From: Nitrosomonadales bacterium
GTDB taxonomy: Bacteria > Pseudomonadota > Gammaproteobacteria > Burkholderiales > Methylophilaceae
Length of the DNA stretch: 64,000 nt
Assembly: GCA_024642775.1 (NCBI GenBank)
Contig: JAHEAL010000001.1
Span: forward strand, 70,130-134,129
Reading direction: 5' to 3'
Made by a program: the position numbers and the translations under genes. Below, one piece after another: positions 21,238-25,316 of the stretch. The notes below the pieces were generated by a model. That model was not told the DNA's origin and made no database searches. It saw only the letters and a program-made list of their open reading frames with translations. Positions within the stretch are counted from its first letter, which is position 1. Each line of letters starts with the position of its first letter.

Positions 21238-21243
21238 TTGACA
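21238..21243 (+). promoter_or_regulatory. Candidate -35 hexamer upstream of the 30-aa microORF/PuuD-like gene
   Basis: Consensus TTGACA; the best -10 candidates (TCTAAT at 21263-21268, spacer 19) are imperfect. Confidence 0.4.
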
Positions 21244-21289
21244 ATGTTTATAAATGGTTTAGTCTAATTAAAAAATTTGGAGGTTATTT

Positions 21290-21382
21290 ATGAAAAATCC
21301 GTTAGATTCAATTTTAGGTACTATTGTAGCAGGAGTTATTCTTACTGTTGTTTTTGTTTATTTGTTGAAAAACTTTATTTAA
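21290..21382 (+). CDS. Unannotated 30-aa single-TM microprotein MKNPLDSILGTIVAGVILTVVFVYLLKNFI
   Basis: ATG preceded by GGAGG (21279-21283) at good spacing, in-frame TAA; hydrophobic core flanked by charged residues. Below the ORF-track length cutoff. Confidence 0.65.
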   Translation: MKNPLDSILGTIVAGVILTVVFVYLLKNFI

Positions 21383-21437
21383 TGCCTGGATTGAAGTCAT
21401 TCAGAATTAACTTTAAATAGATTCTTAGGAGATTTAT

Positions 21438-21935
21438 ATGGAATACGATTATTTTACGGCGATTATGCGATTTACTCATGTAGTGGTGGGTGTTGCATGG
21501 ATAGGCTTACTTTACTACTTTAATTTTGTTCAGGTTCCAGCATTAAAAAATGCTAATGCTGATGGAACGGCATCAGGAATCACAAAGCATGTAGCGCCTC
21601 TCGCTTTACTTTGGTTTAGATGGGCAGCCTTAGCAACTTGGATTGCAGGTGCAGCATTGCTTGGAGCTAATTTTGTTTCTGCATTTTCATTGGATACTGG
21701 ATATGAAGCAATTGGTTTAGGTTCATGGTTGGGAACAATTATGTTGTTTAATGTATGGGTTTTAATTTGGCCAAACCAGCAAAAAATTCTTGGTATGAAG
21801 CCTGCTTCTGATTCAGAAAAAACTGCCGCTAGAAGAATTGCTTTTTTAGCATCAAGAACTAACACGATGTTATCTATTCCTATGTTATTTTTAATGACGA
21901 ATGGACTATCACACAAAGGCTTAATTGGTTTATAA
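21438..21935 (+). CDS. PuuD-like (urate oxidase N-terminal domain family) membrane protein without a cytochrome c domain
   Basis: FTHVVVGVAWIGLLYYFNFVQVPAL and HVAPLALLWFRWAALATWIAG match the Urate_ox_N membrane domain; 165 aa only; SD AGGAG upstream. Confidence 0.75.
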   Translation: MEYDYFTAIMRFTHVVVGVAWIGLLYYFNFVQVPALKNANADGTASGITKHVAPLALLWFRWAALATWIAGAALLGANFVSAFSLDTGYEAIGLGSWLGTIMLFNVWVLIWPNQQKILGMKPASDSEKTAARRIAFLASRTNTMLSIPMLFLMTNGLSHKGLIGL

Positions 21936-21958: not shown

Positions 21959-21985
21959 CGGCGGCATTAGTCGCCGTTTTTTATT
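21959..21985 (+). terminator. Rho-independent terminator-like hairpin with T-tract
   Basis: CGGCGG-CATTAG-TCGCCG followed by TTTTTTATTT; ends a few nt before the argD ATG. Confidence 0.75.
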
Positions 21986-21990
21986 TCGGT

Positions 21991-23181
21991 ATGAGCTCCA
22001 AAACTAACGCAGTACTTAACACCTATGGCAGACTTCCTATTTCTTTTGAAAAAGGGGAAGGTGTTTGGCTATTCGATAAAAATGGCCAAAAGTATCTTGA
22101 CGCTCTAGCGGGGGTTGCAGTAAATACTGTGGGGCATTCCCATACTTATTTTATTAATGGCTTAAAACAACAGCTTGATCAGTATATTCATTTGTCTAAC
22201 TATGTGAATATCCAAGAACAAGAAAAATTAGCTGAACGTTTAGTTAAGTATACCAATCTCGAGTCCGTATTCTTCTCAAATTCAGGTTGTGAAGCAAATG
22301 AAGCCGCAATAAAATTTGCCAGACTTTACGCTTCCAGTCGCAATATCGTCAACCCTGAGATTATTGTCATGGAAAACTCTTTCCATGGAAGGACTATGGC
22401 AACTTTGTCTGCTACTGGAAATAGAAAAGTTCAAGCTGGTTTTGAGCCCTTATTAAAAGGGTTTATTCGAGTTTCTTTTGACGATCTGGAATCAATAAAG
22501 AAAATATCTGAACAAAATAAAAATGTTGTGGCAATTCTAGTTGAGCCCATTCAAGGTGAAGGGGGGGTAAAATTACCCAAGAACCTGAATCATTATTTAT
22601 CAAGTTTAAGAAGTATTTGTGATGAAAACGATTGGTTGCTGATGTTTGATGAAGTGCAAACAGGCATAGGCAGGACAGGAAAATTGTATGCCCATCAATA
22701 TGCTGATGCATTACCTGACGTACTAACTTCTGCAAAAGGACTTGGTTCAGGTGTTCCAATTGGCGCAACTCTAGTAGGAAAAAAAATAACAAGCATTATT
22801 AAACCCGGTCAACACGGCTCTACCTTTGGAGGAAATCCATTAGCTTGCAAAGCAGGAAACCTTACGTTGGATGTAATTGAGAATGAGAATTTAATGTTGA
22901 ATGCCACTATTCAAGGAGCAAAAATTTCTCACCAATTAAGAGAAGCTTTAAAAGACTTTTCAGGTGTCAAAGATGTTAGGCAGCTGGGATTAATGATAGG
23001 TATCGAATTATATAAACCTTGTACTGAATTAATGACGATAGCTCTTAAATATAATTTGCTAATAAGTGTAACCGCATCAAGTGTTATAAGAATAGTGCCC
23101 CCGCTAATAATTAATGATGAAGAAGCTCAATTTTTAGTACAAAAGTTAAAAGAGTTGGTAACTGATTTTTTGGAAAGTTAA
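21991..23181 (+). CDS. argD: Acetylornithine aminotransferase
   Basis: Class III aminotransferase; GVAVNTVGHSH, LLMFDEVQTGIGRTGKLYAHQ, GQHGSTFGGNPLAC; followed by argF. Confidence 0.93.
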   Translation: MSSKTNAVLNTYGRLPISFEKGEGVWLFDKNGQKYLDALAGVAVNTVGHSHTYFINGLKQQLDQYIHLSNYVNIQEQEKLAERLVKYTNLESVFFSNSGCEANEAAIKFARLYASSRNIVNPEIIVMENSFHGRTMATLSATGNRKVQAGFEPLLKGFIRVSFDDLESIKKISEQNKNVVAILVEPIQGEGGVKLPKNLNHYLSSLRSICDENDWLLMFDEVQTGIGRTGKLYAHQYADALPDVLTSAKGLGSGVPIGATLVGKKITSIIKPGQHGSTFGGNPLACKAGNLTLDVIENENLMLNATIQGAKISHQLREALKDFSGVKDVRQLGLMIGIELYKPCTELMTIALKYNLLISVTASSVIRIVPPLIINDEEAQFLVQKLKELVTDFLES

Positions 23182-23190
23182 GATAGGAAT

Positions 23191-24108
23191 ATGAGTATTA
23201 AACATTATTTACAATTTAATGATCTTACTAAAGATGAGATTTATTATTTATTTGATCGAGCTAAATGGATAAAAGATCAATTTAAAAGTTACAAAAAATA
23301 TTGGCCATTAGAAGACCGCACTCTAGTCATGATTTTTGAAAAAGCAAGCACGAGAACAAGATTATCTTTTGAATCCGGAATGCAGCAATTAGGCGGGTCA
23401 GCAATATACTTAAATACGAAAGATTCACAGCTTGGAAGAGGTGAGCCCGTTGAGGATGCGGCACAAGTAATTTCAAGAATGAGTGATGTGGTCATGATCA
23501 GGACTTATGATCAGGAAATTATTGAGAGGTTTGCTGAAAACTCCAGAGTTCCAGTTATTAATGGTCTAACGAACGAGTACCACCCTTGTCAAATTTTAGC
23601 TGATATTTTTACTTATATTGAACACCGCGGACCTATTGAGGGTAAAACCGTTGCGTGGATTGGCGATTCAAATAATGTCTGTAATACATGGCTTCAAGCT
23701 GCAGAATTGTTAAATTTCAACATGCATGTTTCTACTCCTAAAGGATATGAGGTAGAAATAGAGCGTGCCGGTTTGTATGATGACTCTCATTTTGAGGAAT
23801 TTGAGAATCCGATGGATGCAGCAAAAGGCGCGCATCTTGTTACAACAGATGTTTGGACTAGTATGGGTTATGAAGCTGAGCAAAAAGAAAGAATGATGGA
23901 TTTTGCAGACTGGCAAGTCGATAGCGACATGATGGATGTTGCAGATAAAAGTGCATTATTCATGCATTGTCTCCCTGCTCATAGAGGAGAAGAAGTTACA
24001 GCAGAGGTGATTGATGGTAAACATTCAGTTGTATGGGATGAGGCTGAGAATAGACTTCATGTCCAAAAAGCTTTATTAGAATATCTTTTGGTGGGAGAAG
24101 TAAAATAA
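23191..24108 (+). CDS. argF: Ornithine carbamoyltransferase
   Basis: [35 protein letters not shown]. Confidence 0.97.
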
Positions 24109-25316
24109 TGAAATCAATTAAAAAAGTTGTTCTTGCTTACTCAGGAGGTTTAGATACTTCTGTAATTTTAAAATGGCTTCAAGAAAACTATGGCTGTGAA
24201 GTTGTAACCTTTACAGCTGATATTGGTCAGGGTGAAGAAATTGAACCAGCTAGAGAAAAAGCAAAAAGTGCAGGCCTAAAAGAAATATATATAGAAAATT
24301 TAGAAGAAGAATTCGCTAGAGATTATATTTTCCCGATGTTCAGAGCTAATGCTATTTATGAAGGTGAATATCTTTTAGGCACATCAATTGCGAGACCTCT
24401 AATCGCTAAACGCCTAATTGAGATTGCTAAAGAAACAGGTGCGGATGCCATTGCTCATGGAGCAACAGGAAAAGGAAATGATCAAGTTCGTTTTGAGTTA
24501 AATGCTTATGCGTTAAATCCTGATATTAAAGTTATAGCCCCATGGAGAGAGTGGGATTTATTGAGTAGAGAAAAATTATTAAATTTTGCAGAAAAACATA
24601 ATATTCCAGTTGAGATGAAGCATAAAAAAGGAGGCAGTCCTTACAGTATGGATGCTAACCTGCTGCATATCTCATACGAAGGAAGACATCTTGAAAACCC
24701 AGACAACAGTCCAGAAGACGACATGTGGAGATGGACTAAGTCCCCACAAGAGGCTCCAGATAAAGTGGAAGAGTTGGCAATATCATTCGAGAACGGTGAT
24801 CCTGTTGCAATTAACGGAAAAGTAAAAAAACCGCATGAAATTTTTCATGAATTAAATGCAATTGGCTCAAGAAATGGAATTGGAAGACTCGATCTGGTTG
24901 AAAATCGCTTTGTCGGTATGAAGTCCAGAGGTTGTTACGAAACACCGGGGGGAACAATTTTATTGAAGGCGCATAGAGCAATAGAGTCGATTACCCTTGA
25001 TAGAGAAGTGGCACATCTTAAAGATGAGTTAATGCCGAAATATGCTAAATTAATTTATAACGGTTTTTGGTTTGCCCCAGAAAGGGAAGCGCTTCAGACA
25101 TTGATCGATCATACTCAAAAATATGTGAATGGTGATGTAAGATTATCCTGCTACAAAGGGTCGATTCAAGTTTTAGGAAGATCAAGTTCAAATTCATTGT
25201 TTGATGAGACTATCTCAACGTTTGAAGATGATGCGGGCTCATATAACCAAAAAGATGCTGAAGGTTTTATTAAATTAAATGCCTTGAGGTTGAAAATTTT
25301 AGGAAAAAATAAATAA
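24108..25316 (+). CDS. argG: Argininosuccinate synthase
   Basis: [19 protein letters not shown]-terminus, [14 protein letters not shown]. Confidence 0.98.

Follow-up and report, generated by a model that had tools for sequence, protein, structure and literature searches.

A 30-aa microORF, here called TM0, precedes a gene for a short Urate_ox_N (DUF989, PuuD-like) membrane protein in the window, the whole 64,000-nucleotide stretch of DNA that was analysed (Table 1). Our data make it highly likely that TM0 is the separately translated N-terminal transmembrane helix of this short DUF989 protein, the two genes forming one two-gene unit that would encode a five-helix protein. It is very probable that annotation overlooks TM0 and thereby leaves its partner one piece short. 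The coding status of TM0, its strict linkage to the partner gene, its repeated fusion to the partner and the selection acting on it are direct results of sequence comparison.

Table 1. Features of the TM0-DUF989 unit and its putative signals, in window coordinates.
Feature	Position	Strand	Description
TTGACA, candidate -35 element	21238..21243	+	from sequence
Shine-Dalgarno sequence of the microORF, GGAGG	21279..21283	+	6 nt 5' of ATG
MicroORF TM0	21290..21382	+	30 aa, ATG...TAA, one hydrophobic helix, encodes MKNPLDSILGTIVAGVILTVVFVYLLKNFI
Short Urate_ox_N (DUF989, PuuD-like) membrane protein, partner of TM0	21438..21935	+	165 aa, PF06181 E 3e-19
Intrinsic terminator ending the TM0-DUF989 unit, before argD	21959..21976	+	terminator scan

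Organization of the two-gene unit

An earlier note on this DNA had described a 30-aa ORF with a GGAGG Shine-Dalgarno sequence followed by a 165-aa Urate_ox_N-type protein, and both genes were recovered here; the end given there for the finding (21435) takes in the spacer, the ORF itself ending at 21382. The Shine-Dalgarno sequence is retained as GGAGG or GAGG among window-type relatives. The conserved motif of the peptide is N-P-L-D-S-x-x-G-T-x-x-x-G, which in the family alignment forms an invariant or near-invariant core, N-P-L-[DE]-S-x-x-G-T-x-x-x-G. The partner scored 69.8 bits against PF06181 (cut-off 26.9) over two stretches, which places it among the short Urate_ox_N/DUF989 proteins. Between the TM0 stop and the partner start lie 55 nt in the window, and this spacer is near zero in many relatives.

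The same note had placed a consensus TTGACA upstream of the ORF. This element is present and was conserved in 8/8 window-type loci (a re-check of six found it in all), but no -10 hexamer passing the consensus scan follows it, and a promoter at this site is plausible. A stem and T-run equivalent to the window's terminator occupy the same position in the same-genus relatives L002, L003, L004, L007, L008, L009 and L013, and TM0 and the DUF989 gene appear to be a shared two-gene transcription unit with a conserved terminator. On the 5' side of TM0 lies a divergent gene on the other strand, a putative EamA-type transporter by its sequence, and the genes 3' of the partner are argD, argF and argG, in agreement with the earlier statement that purine-catabolism neighbours are absent.

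Raw-ORF clustering of gene neighbours was noisy at high-GC loci and tblastn of the window genes was used instead, which located argD less than 1.2 kb 3' of the short DUF989 gene in 52/80 loci. In most of the Beta- and Gammaproteobacteria examined argD follows the short DUF989 gene directly, usually with argF next (21991-25316 in the window). This adjacency may be mere conserved gene order.

Linkage of TM0 to the short DUF989 gene

The peptide was upstream of or fused to the partner in all of the first 30 homologous loci fetched (30/30). When profiles of the peptide and of its downstream partner were each run against 250 genomes of the order, strong TM0 matches (E < 1e-12) occurred in 31/31 genomes with a close-clade partner and in 0/219 others (Fisher p about 3e-40), and every one of them was directly upstream of a close-clade DUF989 gene. 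The conservation and synteny in relatives by which the earlier note proposed to judge the ORF are both present. Across 80 named loci, drawn from the Methylophilaceae, Thiobacillus, Gallionella, Sulfuriferula and many Gammaproteobacteria, TM0 was found in 79, counting a diverged copy in L091; the exception, L114, begins at a contig edge. A hydrophobic helix is also seen at the N-terminus in twenty more distant relatives; in most it is fused and in the others a separate ORF, and its motif (MGAIFQSLGRTVxAG) often differs. Among these 20 loci L166 is the least secure, and in the most distant clade the helix was equated with TM0 by position more than by score (profile E-values 0.03-0.9).

The loci L164 and L165 belong to a distinct, long-branched short-DUF989 clade with its own separate TM0, carrying the motif H-P-[FY]-D-S-A-A-[GS]-T. 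Contigs titled Klebsiella pneumoniae, Nitrospira and Eremiobacterota (L118, L099, L096, L116) also carry TM0 and a short DUF989 gene, and their proteins fall among proteobacterial sequences in the tree; these may be mis-binned or mislabelled MAG contigs, or cases of transfer.

Repeated fusion of TM0 to its partner

Linkage alone is no proof of binding, since genomic neighbours are linked by inheritance anyway, and it is the fusions that carry the argument. In 14 genomes of the window's genus, peptide and protein occupy one reading frame of 193-207 aa, and these genomes are nested among split relatives. In-frame fusion of TM0 to the N-terminus of the partner is also found in several Gammaproteobacteria and in one distant clade. 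A tree of the core protein only, comprising 146 sequences (104 split, 41 fused and 1 untestable), needs about four changes between the fused and split states, at least three of them forced by well-supported branches, so the state, as read from this tree, has switched several times. The tree was rooted at its midpoint only, which leaves the ancestral state, split or fused, not fixed by it. AlphaFold2 models of two natural fusions, for which fused homologues and not the two window chains were the input, have five helices, with mean pLDDT of 87.9 and 90.9 and pTM of 0.80 and 0.84. The additional helix is N-terminal in these models, where the first 20 residues reach a pLDDT of about 88-91 and the linker is weaker.

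From these data we infer that split genomes would produce the helix as a chain of its own, immediately ahead of the partner, beside which it would then assemble, while other lineages make the same protein as one chain. TM0 would insert N-in/C-out and pack on the core of four helices, bringing the assembled membrane protein to five. The prediction for PuuD is an N-out topology in which helix I enters the membrane from the periplasmic side (Doniselli et al., 2015; PMC4562309), and the N-in/C-out orientation is proposed because a helix fused before helix I must cross from the cytoplasm to the periplasm. The complex may be a redox protein of the membrane that uses the framework of PuuD helices I, II, V and VI and has a substrate other than urate.

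We consider it improbable that TM0 is instead a microprotein in its own right, serving regulation or assembly in the manner of CydX or a chaperone, with only transient binding to the partner and with fusion tolerated rather than structural. Similar small single-helix proteins are known, and the window genes have their own ribosome sites and a 55-nt gap between them, but the several fusions and the occurrence of the helix in essentially every testable homologue favour a permanent part, as does the high confidence with which the fused helix was modelled. The earlier note had proposed an accessory subunit of the PuuD-like protein by analogy with the CydX-type subunits of heme-containing enzymes. 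Linkage, repeated in-frame fusion, purifying selection and the fusion models speak for a subunit. The proposal can be refined in one respect: TM0 matches the N-terminal helix of the fused homologues and is for this reason better described as a split-off part than as a CydX-like extra. The heme part of the analogy is only a hypothesis.

Coding status and purifying selection

The pN/pS of TM0 was about 0.10-0.17 when the window was set against its closest relatives; in comparisons with L002-L008, synonymous sites differed by 0.42-0.47 and nonsynonymous sites by 0.04-0.07. Fifteen pairs across the family gave 195 synonymous and 81 nonsynonymous differences, a pN/pS of 0.15, and the synonymous bias on which the earlier note made its reading of the ORF depend is evident as purifying selection. 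Because of the low pN/pS, and because among the 250 genomes it coincides precisely in occurrence with the neighbouring gene, the TM0 ORF is, by these sequence comparisons, a real conserved gene beyond chance. In many relatives only a few bases separate the stop codon from the start that follows, as might be expected of a leader peptide or translational-coupling device serving the downstream gene, with the peptide itself functionless; we consider this very unlikely, however, as the amino acids are strongly conserved while synonymous sites change freely, and fused homologues keep the peptide in the mature chain.

Searches for related families and structures

No Pfam or NCBIfam model recognising TM0 above its cut-off was found. 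DUF2970 was rejected for the micropeptide, having scored 16.3 bits against a gathering score of 27 with matches in only 2/48 members. That TM0 belongs to the small hydrophobic toxins of type I toxin-antitoxin systems, for example to the Fst family, is exceedingly improbable, since the profile matches, seen in 10/48 members, are weak (best E 0.0019; 16.7-18 bits, below the curated cut-off of 26, in the two members for which the cut-off was shown), the window's own peptide has no match, and TM0 is always linked or fused to one enzyme-like gene.

For the partner, a relation to HemJ (PF03653) was rejected at an hhalign probability of 0.5%, and replacement of HemJ by the partner was rejected too, a true HemJ being present in the genome. 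Comparison with DUF2269, to which only distant similarity was reported in 2015 (PMC4562309), gave an hhalign probability of 1.6% over 70 columns. Sequence searches of the PDB with the partner core and TM0, and with a long PuuD, returned no convincing relatives. Foldseek comparison of both fusion models with the PDB likewise gave no match at E <= 0.001, the hits being generic helical bundles and cytochrome b-like proteins only (E about 1).

Comparison with known small subunits

TM0 resembles CydX, the single-helix partner of about 30-40 aa of a membrane oxidoreductase (the small subunit of cytochrome bd), in its size and its single helix. CydX, however, is an added subunit, whereas TM0 is the counterpart of a helix in fused homologues, and no sequence relation between the two was found, there being no library match above cut-off. 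CydX is the looser parallel, and in behaviour the closest analogy is subunit IIa of the B-type (ba3) heme-copper oxidases. Subunit IIa is a single-helix protein (34-71 aa in bacteria) whose gene lies directly upstream of that of its partner and is frequently missed in annotation; it takes the place of the N-terminal helix in subunit II, two-helix homologues of which occur without the small gene (Prunetti et al., 2011; PMC3128077). TM0 would likewise be a single-helix protein, encoded upstream, that stands in for the N-terminal helix of its partner, although this partner is a short DUF989 protein and not a heme-copper oxidase subunit II, and the resemblance is functional only. Unlike in the ba3 system, fusion and splitting of short DUF989 occur within a single genus. 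In our view TM0 represents a new family of small subunits, though of a kind already known. A short four-helix DUF989 group with a different gene context has already been noted (Doniselli et al., 2015; PMC4562309); the parts of that paper drawn on here make no mention of an additional helix or microORF, and no description of the TM0 helix was found in the portion of the DUF989 and COG3748 literature covered.

Function of the partner protein

The partner keeps PuuD helices I, II, V and VI together with many residues of the framework (helix I His, WIG, LGTIM..NV, P.Q and N..L..P), so that the helix-I histidine is common to both. The PuuD urate oxidase consists of DUF989 and a cytochrome c (Doniselli et al., 2015; PMC4562309). 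In contrast to short DUF989, long PuuD has no TM0, and the long and short forms co-occur in several of the 250 genomes searched. Several features speak against identity of the partner with PuuD urate oxidase: the 165-aa protein lacks the C-terminal cytochrome c domain, as the earlier note had recognised, and has no CXXCH, which the long PuuDs of related genomes do have; the loop ELWAVHGGGFY is missing; and the arg genes next to it offer no purine-degradation context. In the window's genome (92% complete) neither the HIU hydrolase nor the OHCU decarboxylase family was matched. A function as urate oxidase is unlikely given the missing cytochrome c domain and loop and the lack of matches to these two downstream urate-pathway enzymes, and the earlier remark that the substrate of the short PuuD-like family is unclear still stands.

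Searches for a relation of the partner to heme proteins gave no significant profile or fold match, so heme binding can be put forward only as a hypothesis. It is conceivable, though we hold it rather doubtful, that TM0 and short DUF989 together make up a membrane oxidoreductase so far overlooked, with two subunits or, when fused, a single five-helix chain. Such an enzyme might bind heme b through the invariant histidine of helix I, would act on an as yet unassigned substrate, and would be widespread among Beta- and Gammaproteobacteria under the mistaken name of urate oxidase.

Implications

The finding of TM0 corrects the likely composition of its partner. Pfam and NCBIfam have no model for the helix, so the protein annotated in split genomes is probably one helix short of its five, and a short PuuD-like protein expressed alone for substrate hunting would probably be an incomplete protein. 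The subunit idea is directly testable since one genus holds both split and fused forms, and the natural fusions offer a ready single-chain form of the protein for structure and assay.
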